From positions 1 to 48,616 of the IMG/VR virus record IMGVR_UViG_3300045977_000055: a DNA stretch of 48,616 bases; one strand, 5' to 3'. Source of the DNA: a virus. The notes under the pieces were generated by a model that saw only the letters and a program-made list of their open reading frames with translations, was not told the DNA's origin and made no database searches. The translations under genes were made by a program, and so were the position numbers. Positions 24,460 to 33,078 of this stretch are shown here, piece after piece (positions within the stretch are counted from its first letter, which is position 1; each line of letters begins with the position of its first letter).

Positions 24460-24734
24460 GACTGCACCTTGTCACCGACGAATCGACCTTCACCGAGCAG
24501 GCTGAAGATTCGCTCTACGTGCAGGCACTCATGGTGGCCTTGGTAGGCGCGGCGCGTCCTGGCGTCATGGACCCGCCACTCCGCAACAAGCTGGGTGACT
24601 TCGCGATGGAGTTCGGCGCGGCGCTGCGCTTGGAACCTGGCATGACGGATCCCGTGCTGCACGGCGCGATCAGGGTGATTGCCGAGATTGCGGTTAAAGA
24701 TGCGCTGGCGGTGATGAAGCGGAGGGTGTCATGA
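24456..24734 (+). CDS. 92-residue helical protein, unknown function
   Basis: The product begins MRLHLVTDESTFTEQAEDSL and is mostly helical (LYVQALMVALVGAARPGVMD, then IRVIAEIAVKDALAVMKRR). No motif is recognised. It overlaps the first of the three alanine-rich paralogues in an ATGA, so the four genes are probably translated together. Confidence 0.65.
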   Translation: MRLHLVTDESTFTEQAEDSLYVQALMVALVGAARPGVMDPPLRNKLGDFAMEFGAALRLEPGMTDPVLHGAIRVIAEIAVKDALAVMKRRVS

Positions 24735-25378
24735 CGGTCGAAGAACTGCACGCGAAGCTCGTGGAGTTGAACAAGGGCGCGTTGTATGGCGGCGCGCACA
24801 AGCCTGGCGCTCGTGAGTTCTGCGCGCTGGAGTTCGACCATGCGGTAAGAGGCCAGCCGCACAGCGACTCGCCGGACAACCTGCCAGACATCCGTCCGCT
24901 GAACGACGCCGAGTGGTCTTCCGACGCAGTGAGAACAACCCACCTGCTCCGCGTCATGGCGGCGTTGTGGGATTGGCAGGCATGGCCTCTGGCGACGCGG
25001 CAGGCATGGACTGAGCGCGTCACCGTGGAGACCGTTCGCCAGATCATCGCGACGCTACCTGGCTTGCCTGACGCCGAGCGCCAGCGGTGCCGAGCCGCCA
25101 CGACGCCGCTTGCGGCGGCGGCGGCGGCGAGGGCGGCGGAGGCGGAGGCGGCGAGGGCGGCGGCGGAGGCGGCGAGGGCGTCGGCGATGGCGGCGGAGGC
25201 GGCGGCGAGGACGGCGGATGCGGCGGCGGAGGCGGCGGAGGCGGCGAGGGCGGCGGCGAGGGCGGCGGCGGAGGCGACGGCGAGGGCGGCGGCGGAGGCG
25301 GCGGAGGCGGATCGCGTGCTCATCCTGTCCTGCGACATCTGGTGTGAGGCTGCGGACGCTGCGCGGAGGGTGTCATGA
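24731..25378 (+). CDS. Alanine-rich paralogue A
   Basis: The 215-residue product has three parts. Residues 1 to about 127 form a conserved domain (TVEELHAKLVELNKGALYGG, LRVMAALWDWQAWP, VETVRQIIATLPGLPD). A long Ala/Arg/Glu helix follows, made of AARAAAEAA-type runs (DNA 25113-25310). The end is a short conserved tail, DRVLILSCDIWCEAADAARR. I remember phage and plasmid proteins with this build, a WDW-type domain followed by an alanine repeat of variable length, but not their function. Copy A is the diverged member: it begins directly at MTVEEL, while copies B and C carry seven extra N-terminal residues. Confidence 0.75.
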   Translation: MTVEELHAKLVELNKGALYGGAHKPGAREFCALEFDHAVRGQPHSDSPDNLPDIRPLNDAEWSSDAVRTTHLLRVMAALWDWQAWPLATRQAWTERVTVETVRQIIATLPGLPDAERQRCRAATTPLAAAAAARAAEAEAARAAAEAARASAMAAEAAARTADAAAEAAEAARAAARAAAEATARAAAEAAEADRVLILSCDIWCEAADAARRVS

Positions 25379-26606
25379 GCACAGAACCGGCCACCATGAC
25401 CGTCGAAGAACTGCACGCGAAGCTCGTCGAATTGAACAAGGGCGCGTTGTATCGCGGCGCGCACAAGCCAGGCGCTCGTGAGTTCTGTGCGCTGGAGTTC
25501 GACCACGCCGTGCGCGGGCAAGCCCACAGCGACTCACCTGACAACTTGCCAGACATGCGGTGCCTCAATGATGCGCGGTGGTCCTCGGATGCGGTCAGGA
25601 CGACGCACCTACTCCGCGTCATGGCGGCGTTGTGGGATTGGCGGGCATGGCCTCTGGCGCAGCGGCAGGCGTGGACTGACCGCGTCACCGTGGAGACCGT
25701 TCGCCAGATCATCGCGACGCTACCTGGCTTGCCTGACGCCGAGCGCCAGCGGTGCCGAGCCGCCACGACGCCGCTTGCGGCGGCAGCGGCGGCGAGGGCG
25801 GCGGCGGCGGCGGCGATGGCGGCGGCGGAGGCGGCGGAGGCGGCGTGGGCGGCGGCGAGGACGGCGAGGGCGGCGGCGAGGGCGGCGGCGAGGGCGGCGG
25901 CGAGGGCGGCGGCGGAGGCGACGGCGAGGGCGGCGGCGGTGGCGGCGGAGGCGGCGGCGAGGACGGCGGATGCGGCGGCGGAGGCGGCGAGGGCGGCGGA
26001 GGCGGCGGCGGCGAGGACGGCGGAGGCGGATCGCGTGCTCATCCTGTCCTGCGACATCTGGTGTGAGGCTGCGGACGCTGCGCGGAGGGTGTCATGAGCA
26101 CAGAACCGGCCACCATGACCGTCGAAGAACTGCACGCGAAGCTCGTCGAATTGAACAAGGGCGCGTTGTATCGCGGCGCGCACAAGCCAGGCGCTCGTGA
26201 GTTCTGTGCGCTGGAGTTCGACCACGCCGTGCGCGGGCAAGCCCACAGCGACTCACCTGACAACTTGCCAGACATGCGGTGCCTCAATGATGCGCGGTGG
26301 TCCTCGGATGCGGTCAGGACGACGCACCTACTCCGCGTCATGGCGGCGTTGTGGGATTGGCGGGCATGGCCTCTGGCGCAGCGGCAGGCGTGGACTGACC
26401 GCGTCACCGTGGAGACCGTTCGCCAGATCATCGCGACGCTACCTGGCTTGCCTGACGCCGAGCGCCAGCGGTGCCGAGCCGCCACGACGCCGCTTGCGGC
26501 GGCGGCGGCGGCGAGGGCGGCGGAGGCGGAGGCGGCGAGGGCGTCGGCGGCGAGGGCGTCGGCGGCGAGGGCGGCGGCGTGGGCGGCGGCGAGGACGGCG
26601 TGGGCG
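25113..26606 (+). repeat. GGCGGCGAG-rich low-complexity tracts in paralogues
   Basis: Three tracts, 25113-25310, 25778-26028 and 26497-26606, consist almost only of GCG, GCG-AGG and GCG-GAG codon strings. The plus strand is strongly G-rich with repeated GGG steps, so G-quadruplex formation in DNA or mRNA is conceivable. Low complexity leaves several frames and the minus strand open, which produces long false ORFs. Tract lengths differ between the copies, consistent with replication slippage. Confidence 0.85.
25375..26097 (+). CDS. Alanine-rich paralogue B
   Basis: The 240-residue product repeats the architecture of copy A with the longest alanine tract of the three (DNA 25778-26028). It starts MSTEPATMTVEEL. 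The first residues copy the MSTE start of the Bet gene at 26672, and the old MTVEEL start remains inside. Its first 415 or so bases are identical, as read, to copy C, showing very recent duplication. The gene overlaps A and C by four bases. Whether all copies are functional is unknown, but all three frames are intact. Confidence 0.75.
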   Translation: MSTEPATMTVEELHAKLVELNKGALYRGAHKPGAREFCALEFDHAVRGQAHSDSPDNLPDMRCLNDARWSSDAVRTTHLLRVMAALWDWRAWPLAQRQAWTDRVTVETVRQIIATLPGLPDAERQRCRAATTPLAAAAAARAAAAAAMAAAEAAEAAWAAARTARAAARAAARAAARAAAEATARAAAVAAEAAARTADAAAEAARAAEAAAARTAEADRVLILSCDIWCEAADAARRVS

Positions 26607-26675
26607 GATCGCGTTCTCATCCTGTCCTGCGACATCTGGTGTGAGGCTGCGGACGCTGCGCGGAGGGTGTCATGA
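26094..26675 (+). CDS. Alanine-rich paralogue C
   Basis: The 193-residue product is the third tandem copy. Its N-terminal domain equals copy B, while the alanine tract is much shorter (DNA 26497-26606), so tract length changes faster than the domain. The conserved tail DRVLILSCDIWCEAADAARR is kept. The stop overlaps the Bet start at 26672. The block lies at the front of the recombination-replication operon, so an accessory role in DNA metabolism is possible but unproven. Confidence 0.75.
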   Translation: MSTEPATMTVEELHAKLVELNKGALYRGAHKPGAREFCALEFDHAVRGQAHSDSPDNLPDMRCLNDARWSSDAVRTTHLLRVMAALWDWRAWPLAQRQAWTDRVTVETVRQIIATLPGLPDAERQRCRAATTPLAAAAAARAAEAEAARASAARASAARAAAWAAARTAWADRVLILSCDIWCEAADAARRVS

Positions 26676-28965: not shown

Positions 28966-29700
28966 ATGGCCTGGGTTCGGATTGATGATCAAGCGCCTCG
29001 ACATGCGAAGTGTCTCAAGGCTGGACCGGCTGCGTGCTGGCTGTGGGTGTGCGGGCTCGCCCATTGCCAGAGTCAGCTTACCGACGGCTTCATCGCAGAC
29101 GAGGTATTGCCCATGATCGGGATCGCCGGCACCGCTAGGGCGAGACGGCTCGCGGACGAACTCGTGACGGCGGGCCTCTTCGATAAGGTGGACGGCGGGT
29201 ATGCCGTTCACGACTATCTCGACTTCAACCAATCCAAGGCGCAAGTGCTCGCCAAACGCGCTGAGGAAACGCAGCGCAAGCGGGCTGGAATCCGGACGGA
29301 ATCCGCTCGGAATCCGGACGGAATCCGCTCGGAATCCGGACCTCCGCGCGCGCGCATCCCATCCCATCCCATCCCATCCGTCAAGAAACTGGCTTCGCCA
29401 GTTGAGCGGCCCAAGGCGCCGTCCGACCCGCGCGTCAAGGAGTTCCTGGCGTGGTTTCAAGCCGAATACCGGCGCAGGCGTGGAGGTGATTACCTCGTGG
29501 ACTGGGCGAAAGACGGAGCGCTGGTAAAAGCTATGCTCGGGGCAACGGAACTCCAGACGTTACAGGAGTGTGCGGCCATTCTGCTCGAGTCGGACGAGCC
29601 GTGGATTTCAGAAACAGATCGCGGCATCGGCGTGCTCAAAGCTCGGTTTAACTGGCTGTCAGATCGCAGGGCGCAATGGCTGAAAACCAACCGAGCGTGA
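28966..29700 (+). CDS. Replication-initiator-like protein with internal iterons
   Basis: I chose ATG 28966 (MAWVRIDDQAPRHAKCLKAG) because that opening is the usual start of phage replisome-organiser-type proteins. The following winged-helix region reads ARARRLADELVTAGLFDKVD with YAVHDYLDFNQSKAQVLAKR. Residues about 105-140 are a Pro/Ser/Arg linker that contains the DNA repeats listed separately. The C-terminal domain (ASDPRVKEFLAWFQAEYRRR-like, then LQTLQECAAILLESDEPWIS) resembles a helicase-loader or DnaD-like helical domain. Lambda O carries its origin iterons inside the gene in the same way. No phage helicase or polymerase is present, so host machinery would be loaded. Confidence 0.78.
   Translation: MAWVRIDDQAPRHAKCLKAGPAACWLWVCGLAHCQSQLTDGFIADEVLPMIGIAGTARARRLADELVTAGLFDKVDGGYAVHDYLDFNQSKAQVLAKRAEETQRKRAGIRTESARNPDGIRSESGPPRARIPSHPIPSVKKLASPVERPKAPSDPRVKEFLAWFQAEYRRRRGGDYLVDWAKDGALVKAMLGATELQTLQECAAILLESDEPWISETDRGIGVLKARFNWLSDRRAQWLKTNRA
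29287..29341. repeat. Five 11-bp iterons, possible replication origin
   Basis: GGAATCCGGAC and GGAATCCGCTC alternate five times without gaps (29287-29297, 29298-29308, 29309-29319, 29320-29330, 29331-29341). GGAATCC is nearly self-complementary to GGATTCC. The 11-bp spacing is about one helical turn, so bound protein would line up on one face of the DNA. The unit is not a multiple of three, and the encoded residues repeat only every 33 bp, which argues for selection on the DNA rather than on the protein. Confidence 0.85.
29355..29379. repeat. CATCC x5 microsatellite next to iterons
   Basis: Five perfect CATCC units follow a short CG-alternating stretch (about 29345-29355) just after the iterons. 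The tract is strand-asymmetric (pyrimidine-rich on the plus strand) and may be an unwinding or primase-related element, or simply a slippage-prone linker encoding IPSHPIPS. Confidence 0.8.
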
Positions 29701-30582: not shown

Positions 30583-30896
30583 CGTTTGATGAGTATCAAG
30601 CGGCGGCCGCCAGGACGAGCGCCGCGCCGTTTCCAGAACGTGAGCGTCCGCTCGTGCAATGTCTCGGGCTCTGCGGTGAATCCGGAGAACTCGCGGACCT
30701 CATCAAAAAGGCTGCCTGGCACGGCCAGCCATTGAGCCGAGAGCGATTCATTGACGAGGCCGGCGACGTGCTCTGGTATCTGTCCGATTTGGCCACGCAC
30801 TACCGCGTGAGCCTGGACGAAATCGCGTCCGGGAACATCCACAAGCTCACCGAGCGGTATCCGGACGGCTTTACGGTTGGTGGTGGGAACCGATGA
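30579..30896 (+). CDS. MazG-family nucleotide pyrophosphohydrolase
   Basis: The 105-residue product begins MTFDEYQAAAARTS. The metal-binding helices are clear: LGLCGESGELADLIKKAA (ExxE) and FIDEAGDVLWYLSDLA (ExxD), then the LDEIASGNIHKLTERYPDGF end of the MazG fold. It hydrolyses NTPs or dNTPs to monophosphates. In phages it is thought to adjust nucleotide pools or alarmone signals. It overlaps the nuclease and the helicase genes. Confidence 0.9.
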   Translation: MTFDEYQAAAARTSAAPFPERERPLVQCLGLCGESGELADLIKKAAWHGQPLSRERFIDEAGDVLWYLSDLATHYRVSLDEIASGNIHKLTERYPDGFTVGGGNR

Positions 30897-32182
30897 GCAG
30901 TTACGCCGCATTTTTGGAGACCAAGCGGCGCGTGCATCATGCGGCGTCCGTGCTCGACGCGGATCTGTCATCGGTCGGTCTCTACCCGTGGCAAGAGCGG
31001 ATCGTGCAATGGGCCCTTCGGAAAGGACGGGCCGCCATTTGGGCGGATTGTGGGCTAGGCAAAACGCCCATGCAACTCGCGTGGGCGGCGGCGACCAGCC
31101 AACGGACGCTGATTCTCACCCCGCTCTGCGTGGCTGAACAGACCGTCGCGGAAGGGCAAAAGTTCGGCGTGCCAGTAGTCTACGCCCGTTCCGAGCCGGT
31201 TCAGGCATCCGGCGTCATCGTGACGAATTACGAACGCCTCGATCAATTCGATCCGTCGCGGTATGGCGCCGTGGTGTTGGACGAATCCTCGATTCTGAAG
31301 GCGTTCGACGGCAAGACCAGAACCGCGCTCATCCAAGCCTTCTCTCGGACTCCGTATCGGCTGTGTTGCACGGCGACACCCAGCCCGAACGATATCGCCG
31401 AACTCGCGAATCACTGCGAGTTCCTGGGGCTGATGACGAGAAGCGAATTTCTCGCAACATGGTTCGTGCATGACGATGAGGGGTGGCGGATGAAGGGCCA
31501 CGCGGCCAAACCGTTCTATCGCTGGCTCGCGTCCTGGGCGGTTGCGCTCCGCTCCCCGGCCGACATTGGATTCCCAGATGACCGATTCTCACTCCCGCCC
31601 CTCCGGTTTCACGAGGTCGTGGTCGAAACCAGCGGGCCGTCTCATGCGCTGTTTCCAGAACTCGGCACGTCAGGGATTCACGGCCGCCTCCGCGCCCGCC
31701 GAGATTCGCTGGAGGCAAGAGTGGAAGCCTCCGTGCTCGCGGCCAGACAAGAAGAGTCGGCCTGTCTTATCTGGTGCGGCCTGCATGCGGAGAGCGATGC
31801 CATCGCCGACGTGATGCCGGAAGCCGTCAACGTGAAAGGCGCTGACACCTATGCCGAGAAGGCAGCCGCCGTGCGCGGGTTTGTGTCAGGCACTATTCTG
31901 ACGCTCGTCTCCAAGGTTCGCATCTTGGGATTCGGGCTCAATTTCCAGCACTGCCACCGGATGGTGTTCTGCGGGATAGGGGATTCGTTCGAGCAGTATT
32001 ACCAGGCCATTCGCCGCTGCTGGCGGTTCGGGCAATCGTCTCCGGTGGATGTGTCGATCGTGGTGAGCGAGGCCGAGCGGATTGTGCTGGATAACGTGCG
32101 ACGCAAGGAAGCCTCAGCGACCGGCTTGTCGGCCGCGCTCCTGGCGCAGATGCACGACTTTCAACGAGAGGAACTGTCGTGA
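30893..32182 (+). CDS. SNF2-type DEAD/DEAH-box helicase
   Basis: The 429-residue product shows superfamily 2 motifs in order: Q-like YPWQERIVQWAL, Walker A ADCGLGKTP (about 51-59), motif Ia TLILTPLCV, motif II VVLDESSIL (DESS, about 128-135), motif III CCTATPSPND (about 159-167), motif V FGLNFQHC (347-354) and motif VI QAIRRCWRFGQ (371-381). It uses ATP to move along or remodel duplex DNA. It is coupled by four bases to a DNA methyltransferase, a pairing seen repeatedly in phages and mobile elements and likely to act together on replication or host restriction. Confidence 0.9.
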   Translation: MSSYAAFLETKRRVHHAASVLDADLSSVGLYPWQERIVQWALRKGRAAIWADCGLGKTPMQLAWAAATSQRTLILTPLCVAEQTVAEGQKFGVPVVYARSEPVQASGVIVTNYERLDQFDPSRYGAVVLDESSILKAFDGKTRTALIQAFSRTPYRLCCTATPSPNDIAELANHCEFLGLMTRSEFLATWFVHDDEGWRMKGHAAKPFYRWLASWAVALRSPADIGFPDDRFSLPPLRFHEVVVETSGPSHALFPELGTSGIHGRLRARRDSLEARVEASVLAARQEESACLIWCGLHAESDAIADVMPEAVNVKGADTYAEKAAAVRGFVSGTILTLVSKVRILGFGLNFQHCHRMVFCGIGDSFEQYYQAIRRCWRFGQSSPVDVSIVVSEAERIVLDNVRRKEASATGLSAALLAQMHDFQREELS

Positions 32183-33078
32183 CCGACCAACGAACATGGA
32201 CCGGCGACGGTTGGACGCTGGTCAACGGCGATAGCTGCGAGGCGCTTTCGGCGCTCGAGCCAGAGAGCGTCGACCTCTCGATCTACTCGCCGCCGTTCAT
32301 GAGCCTCTACACCTACACCGCGAGTGAGCGGGACTTGGGGAACTGCGCGTCAGACGCCGAGTTCTTTGAACACTTCCGGTTCATCATCGACGGTCTCCTG
32401 CGCGTCGCCAAGCCTGGGCGTAATACCTGCGTGCATGTGGCCGAGTTGACGAGCACGCTGGCCACACATGGCGTGATCGGCCTGATTGATTTTCCAGGGA
32501 AGGTGATTCGCGCCTATCAAGATGCTGGCTGGACGTATCACGGCCGCGTGACCATCGACAAAGATCCGCAGGCCCAAGCGATCCGGACACACTCCAAGGG
32601 CCTGCTGTTCGTGCAAATGAAAAAGGATTCGACGTGGAGTCGTCCGGCGCTGGCCGATACGATTCTCATCTTTCGCAAGCCTGGCGACAACGCCGTGCCC
32701 GTCACGCACGGGACGCCGGAGAGCGCCTTAACGAATGACGAGTGGATCGAATGGGCGCGCCCGATCTGGTATGGCATTCGAGAATCGGACACGCTCAACG
32801 TGGCGATTGCGAGGGATGACAAGGACGAGCGGCACATCTGCCCCTTGCAGCTTGGCACGATCGAGCGGTGCGTGAGGCTCTGGAGCAATCCTGGCGAACT
32901 CGTGTTGTCGCCGTTCGCTGGCATCGGGTCCGAGGGCTATGAGTCCATCCGGCTCGGTCGCAGATTCTACGGGATCGAACTTAAGCCGCGCTACGCCGAG
33001 GTGGCGGTCAACAATCTCATGGCCGCAGAGTCGTTGAAGCGGCAGGGATCGTTGTGGGCGACAGAGCAGCCAGCATGA
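32179..33078 (+). CDS. Beta-class DNA methyltransferase
   Basis: The 299-residue product has the catalytic SPPF motif (about residues 37-40) before the SAM-binding FAGIGSEGYES motif (about 246-256), the order of beta-class N6-adenine/N4-cytosine methyltransferases. The segments LVNGDSCEALSAL and GIELKPRYAEVAVNNL fit the family's ends. The S in SPPF leaves N4-cytosine or N6-adenine open. No cognate restriction enzyme is visible, so it is an orphan enzyme coupled to the helicase. It may protect phage DNA or mark it. Confidence 0.9.
   Translation: MTDQRTWTGDGWTLVNGDSCEALSALEPESVDLSIYSPPFMSLYTYTASERDLGNCASDAEFFEHFRFIIDGLLRVAKPGRNTCVHVAELTSTLATHGVIGLIDFPGKVIRAYQDAGWTYHGRVTIDKDPQAQAIRTHSKGLLFVQMKKDSTWSRPALADTILIFRKPGDNAVPVTHGTPESALTNDEWIEWARPIWYGIRESDTLNVAIARDDKDERHICPLQLGTIERCVRLWSNPGELVLSPFAGIGSEGYESIRLGRRFYGIELKPRYAEVAVNNLMAAESLKRQGSLWATEQPA

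Follow-up and report, generated by a model that had tools for sequence, protein, structure and literature searches.

Why should a gene for a replication-initiator-like protein carry an array of short tandem DNA repeats in its middle, and could this array be part of the origin at which the phage replicates? The gene occupies positions 28966–29700 on the plus strand of the window (the whole stretch of DNA analyzed, 48,616 nucleotides) and encodes a protein of 244 residues beginning MAWVRIDD, whose assignment draws on PHROG matches, an AlphaFold2 model and the gene order of relatives. In profile searches residues 1–117 matched phrog_2447 (E=1.3e-29) and phrog_3926 (E=3.6e-20), both of which PHROG annotates as "replication initiation protein," and all 70 of the 70 aligned relatives also matched both families; Pfam and NCBIfam gave zero matches to the window protein. 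A tblastn search with the initiator returned 252 phage records, nearly all of them actinophages and many labeled replication initiation protein. The cultured relatives are phages of Gordonia, Microbacterium and Arthrobacter in which the gene carries the same annotation, and in some of them a helicase gene lies just downstream (DnaB-like in 1191A and Appa, annotated simply as "helicase" in Schmidt), with an SSB gene also downstream of the initiator in Appa and Schmidt. Based on the PHROG annotation and these neighboring helicase and SSB genes in cultured relatives, we refer to the product as initiator-like.

The AlphaFold2 model and 70 homologs indicate a winged-helix N-domain (residues ~1–110, pLDDT ~97), a linker (~120–150) modeled at low confidence, which we read as disordered, and a helical C-domain (155–243). 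The C-domains differ among relatives: two of the 70 have a DnaD/DnaB_2 domain (DnaD_dom) and others match primosomal families. The DnaD/DnaB_2 profile had no match in the C-terminal part of the window protein, and an AAA+ domain was not found in the window initiator. Since the type of C-domain varies between relatives, the linker is also a joint between domains. Two relatives carry an HNH-like domain at this locus: in one (L058:2822-3322) a short ORF combines the N-domain with the HNH-like domain and is followed immediately by a second initiator ORF, and in the other (L023:5001-6164) the HNH-like domain sits inside the initiator linker, fused to the N-domain. Possibly these fusions represent invasion of the origin gene by homing endonucleases.

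The initial annotation described five gap-free 11-bp iterons in the linker of an initiator-like protein, and both parts of that description held. Direct reading places the array, on the plus strand, exactly at 29287–29341, where three copies of GGAATCCGGAC alternate with two of GGAATCCGCTC, and Tandem Repeats Finder reports it with a period of 11 (5.0 copies, 81%) or 22 (2.5 copies, 100%). Identity at a lag of 22 is 33/33 within the array, compared to a best value of 24/33 among 300 shuffled 48.6-kb windows, and single near-matches to the iteron in the rest of the window do not exceed chance. Each unit consists of an odd dyad, GGA-N-TCC (7 bp; GGAATCC as the core in the window), and a 4-bp spacer, and is a putative binding site for the initiator. 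The array corresponds to codons 108–126 of the 244-residue ORF, in the disordered linker.

To compare this region across relatives we drew on viral and genome collections and kept 103 loci with less than 90% identity in the N-domain. Exact 5-mers were counted in the 110 bp upstream of the C-run ladder described below in 92 loci, with codon shuffles providing the expectation. Recurrences at 11 bp numbered 404 versus a codon-shuffle mean of 14.5, and those at 12 bp numbered 303 versus 21.6; lags of 22, 24, and 33 bp were likewise enriched, and control regions from the N-terminal part gave 17 and 27 recurrences at lags 11 and 12. The iteron words differ by clade (GGANTCC, GTNAC, GAANTTC, CCAGCAG, AAGCAA, and others). 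The clade of the window keeps just GGANTCC, with 67 units at 11 loci, two of which (L008 and L091) are from one contig; the center base is nearly random and the spacer varies. Mismatches in the core of this clade number 5, 9, and 7 of 102 at codon positions 1, 2, and 3, respectively, an even spread that is expected of constraint on DNA rather than on protein. Mutual information between iteron class and N-domain residues was weak (best column 71, z 4; columns 57–58, z ~2.5) for the 36 classified loci with phylogeny not removed, and a comparison of shared 6-mers with N-domain identity was uninformative.

Downstream of the array in the window are an alternating (CG)5 tract, CGCGCGCGCG (29345–29354), and a C-run ladder on the plus strand (29355–29379) in which CATCC is repeated five times, so that the coding strand has a CCC at each 5-nt step and the minus strand has GGGAT repeats. 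The CG tract is a feature of only some relatives, occurring near the module in 13 of 98 versus 4.7% of control segments. The ladder is far more widespread: defined as at least two repeats of CCCN2-3 followed by CCC, it was found on the coding strand of 92 of the 103 relatives and on the opposite strand of six, the rate in 1681 control segments taken from these loci being 5.4%. Successive CCC runs start 5 nt apart in 161 cases and 6 nt apart in 173, all three codon frames are used (37/32/27), and other loci have ladder words such as CCCGTA, CCCGT, CCCGAT, CCCCGT, CCCGGT, and CCCATA; the encoded peptides vary (PVPV, SRSR, RPVPS, PDPD, PIPSH). Two other candidate words were tried and rejected. 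(CCCGTA)3 is not diagnostic of an origin because its matches listed from viral contigs include initiators but also many long minisatellites elsewhere; among the matches listed, L157, L173, L192, L197, and others have long (CCCGTA)n or GTGTGT-type hexanucleotide minisatellites outside initiator genes. A purine 5-mer ladder (AGAGT), guessed for low-GC phages, had no initiator-like matches except possibly one (L285) and was dropped.

Directly 3′ of the ladder in the window is a perfect 7-bp stem-loop on the plus strand (AACTGGC-TTC-GCCAGTT, 29387–29403), and the DNA fold of 29380–29420 has a z of −3.1. Perfect stems of at least 8 bp occur right after the ladder in 22% of 98 loci, compared to 2.3% elsewhere and 0% at 150 bp downstream; most of the loops read C(TAC)G, C(TTC)G, or C(TRAC)G, and the stem-loop is clear in about one third to one half of loci. 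Averaged over the relatives, the 20 bp past the ladder have an AT content 16 points above that of their own locus. The window has no lambda-like AT-rich tract, with AT contents of 36% in the iterons, 40% in the ladder and 37.5% in the next 40 bp, the window mean being 38%. Scans with Rfam and for tRNAs found nothing, and promoter and terminator scans gave no promoter-like match near the iterons and no terminator-like T-run.

Two lines of evidence bear on whether the module is conserved as DNA. In the first, each linker was re-coded with random synonymous codons at the usage of its own locus. This reduced the ladder from 91 of 100 loci to 22 ± 3.8, phased recurrences from 2359 to 703 ± 30, and stems of at least 7 bp from 32 of 94 loci to 3.2; the array of the window scored 48, and the maximum in 5000 synonymous randomizations was 28. 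The initial annotation had reasoned that relatives with the same linker protein and randomized codons would refute its reading; the relatives examined keep the DNA pattern, not the linker protein, and the codon-position mismatches, synonymous randomization and clade comparison all uphold constraint at the DNA level. The second line comes from six loci (five distinct) in whose assembled sequences the stop codon of the initiator precedes or interrupts the module and the repeats nevertheless persist. In L008/L091 (one contig), L027, L031, and L042 the ORF ends ahead of the module or within it. L093 has its iterons, CG tract and ladder ~250 bp past the initiator stop, behind another small ORF, which indicates that the parts travel together. 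We consider these occurrences outside the ORF the strongest single argument for what appears to be a function of the DNA itself. What the loci have in common is an anatomy, a position and a conservation as DNA and not as protein, with the parts linked even where they are non-coding.

Our reading, held with good confidence on the strength of these sequence comparisons, is that 29287–29403 is probably a phage replication origin situated within the initiator gene itself, where the linker is encoded. We propose that the winged-helix N-domain would bind the 11-bp GGANTCC iterons, which are spaced by one helical turn and all face the same side of the DNA, and that this binding would build a nucleoprotein array. 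This array could then strain or capture the adjoining C-ladder and the short AT-enriched stem-loop DNA, leading to strand-specific opening, and the ladder and stem-loop DNA would be the melting or priming part. The variable C-domain, which is DnaD/DnaB_2-like in a few relatives, may recruit or load the replicative helicase or primase. We infer that binding, melting or priming, loading and the start of replication all take place at this site. GC skew, which the initial annotation had put forward as a check, has no inflexion near 29.3 kb and is uninformative as to an origin.

More broadly, we suggest tentatively, as a possibility somewhat short of an even chance, that a modular in-initiator origin is common to a large group of phages and has up to three parts: clade-specific 11/12-bp iterons, a near-universal strand-specific CCC ladder with 5–6-nt steps, and an adjacent stem-loop in one third to one half of loci. 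On this view the ladder would take the place of the usual AT-rich unwinding tract as an origin element not described before, be it an ssDNA lattice captured by the initiator, a G4/i-motif or a priming site. Its role in the module may be that of an ssDNA lattice, a G-quadruplex, a priming site or an RNA element.

Of the alternatives to this mechanism, the one that fares best is that the minus strand of the ladder forms a G-quadruplex by which the origin is opened or paused; this is a variety of the origin reading and compatible with it. Four or more CCC runs separated by short loops are present in 75 of 98 loci, and the spacing of 5–6 fits GGG with loops of 2–3 nt; the minus strand of the window has four GGG and one GG. 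However, 23 of the 98 loci have only three CCC runs and a close relative (L019) has two, so that a canonical quadruplex is not universal, and the loop length is tighter than a quadruplex requires. On balance we think a quadruplex rather unlikely. Also unlikely, in our estimation, is that the ladder and stem-loop act in RNA, as a C-rich element, either rut-like or bound by protein, which together with a stable hairpin controls the initiator mRNA, leaving only the iterons as replication elements. The orientation of the ladder is indeed strand-specific relative to transcription (92 versus 6 of 103), and the loops C(TAC)G and C(TTC)G presumably resemble stable RNA tetraloops. Transcription has a known role in origin activation in lambda (PMC5043065). 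Against this, the ladder remains tied to the iterons even where it is non-coding (L093, L042, L027, and L031), and the module is without a terminator-like T-run.

The remaining alternatives question whether the repeats are replication elements at all. A winged-helix protein with dyad sites could use the iterons as an operator for autorepression, and iteron autoregulation is known in plasmids, but the sites are ~320 bp into the gene, have no promoter-like match in their vicinity and are joined to a ladder and a stem-loop, and we judge an operator in place of an origin very unlikely. Still less probable is that the repeats are neutral minisatellites, formed with periods of 5, 6, and 11 bp by replication slippage in a linker that tolerates them. 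Exact (CCCGTA)n does also occur, among the matches listed, in long low-complexity arrays unrelated to initiators, and the perfect 22-bp units of the window array make a recent duplication likely; however, the class of word, the strand, the place and the order are constant across ~100 diverged loci, degenerate repeats hold GGA/TCC and CCC as other positions vary, and the module survives outside the ORF. Finally, it is scarcely credible that the repeats exist for the sake of the protein, with selection on the repeated peptide of a flexible or proline-rich linker and the DNA repeats as its by-product, for although the region is truly a disordered linker, often with PVPVPV, PIPSH, PSPS, or PDPD, the peptide changes freely (PVPV, SRSR, RPVPS, PDPD) as the DNA word stays constant, the ladder is found equally in three frames, core mismatches have no third-position excess, the signals are lost on synonymous randomization and the repeats continue past stop codons.

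Returning to the origin reading, its arrangement has known precedents, as an origin inside the initiator gene is found in lambda, the classical case, and in some staphylococcal plasmids. The iterons of oriLambda sit in the middle of the O gene between the parts for DNA binding and helicase loading (PMC5043065, PMC7466680), and the window array, at codons 108–126, likewise sits between the winged helix and the C-domain. The proposal in the initial annotation of a lambda-O-like origin is borne out for this layout and not for membership, since lambda has four ~19-bp inverted repeats and a 40-bp AT-rich tract, neither of which is present at this site, where there are instead five 11-bp direct repeats with a 7-bp odd dyad and a GC-rich ladder, and Pfam and NCBIfam profile searches gave the window protein no family match to lambda O. 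The module likely works as oriLambda does.

The closest counterpart in fold and layout, and a closer structural and positional parallel than lambda, appears to be the staphylococcal RepA_N (pSK41) initiator. A fold search with the N-domain (VIA) gave 4pql, 4pt7, 5kbj, and 4pta among the best matches (Z 7.4–7.9 over 82–83 residues), tied with generic or unrelated winged helices; one of the RepA-initiator matches is DNA-bound, and the entry titles include "initiator," "Rep-DNA complex," and "MDR initiator." We take these four to be staphylococcal RepA entries (pSK41/pTZ2162 type). Foldseek alone gave nothing below E 0.29, a search by sequence among solved structures yielded one match, at the level of chance, and RepA_N (PF06970) had no match in 70 of 70 members at E≤0.01. 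In pSK41, a precedent that has been tested, RepA has a winged-helix N-domain and a DnaD-like C-domain that contacts DnaG, and the origin is central in rep, the linker that it encodes being dispensable (PMC5703833). The window family similarly has an origin-like array central in the initiator gene and a variable linker, but its iterons are 11 bp and GC-rich, whereas pSK41 has Rep boxes with A+T tracts, and a C-ladder and stem-loop were not found in the passages describing its origin.

Two further systems offer partial parallels. In the basal unwinding system (BUS) of bacterial oriC, the DnaA-box and DnaA-trio, double-strand sites also lie beside a short-period strand-specific ladder (PMC10721633), but the CCC of the window family has a period of 5–6 nt in place of 3-nt trios, and the window initiator has no detected AAA+ domain. 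In the mycobacteriophages Miko, Rachaly, and Jeeves the initiator RepA is necessary and sufficient for replication, and its origin was placed only within or beside repA, with no repeated motifs in the regions searched (PMC7157519). That RepA is of another type (320–350 residues), although it too is an actinophage initiator with an origin in or next to its gene.

No description of an origin for the phrog_2447 and phrog_3926 families was found in the open-access PubMed Central literature, nor, in a limited survey of the same literature, one of a CCC ladder with 5–6-nt steps or of the stem-loop. About 100 related viruses have in common a succession of repeats, C-run ladder and, often, hairpin, of which the ladder and the hairpin appear to be new. 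Experimentally mapped origins of actinophages and related prophages are few (e.g., PMC7157519), and the layout allows a putative origin to be assigned from the sequence of roughly 100 phages and prophages, with phased iterons and a CCC ladder as the DNA signature for annotation. It also raises the testable question of how a GC-rich ladder could open in place of an AT-rich tract, and the natural cases in which the module lies outside the gene separate DNA function from coding function.

Several minor features were observed in the window and in the set of relatives. In the Bacillota MAG Bu92, a relative of the initiator locus is found on two contigs (L097 and L098) with equally good matches; these may be two related prophages or a duplicate that arose in binning. 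In the window, the initiator region is adjoined by a SNF2-like helicase gene, after which comes an overlapping N6/N4 DNA methyltransferase gene (30893–33078). Just upstream of a RecT gene are three tandem paralogous ORFs (24731–26675; 215, 240, and 193 residues) whose N-terminal halves are near-identical and whose alanine-rich tails, encoded by GCG/GAG repeats, are unequal in length. A perfect 147-bp tandem repeat (1–274, 1.9 copies) opens the contig, and the last 87 bases of the contig (48530–48616) are identical to its first 87, which suggests either a complete genome, terminally redundant or circular, or an artifact of assembly.
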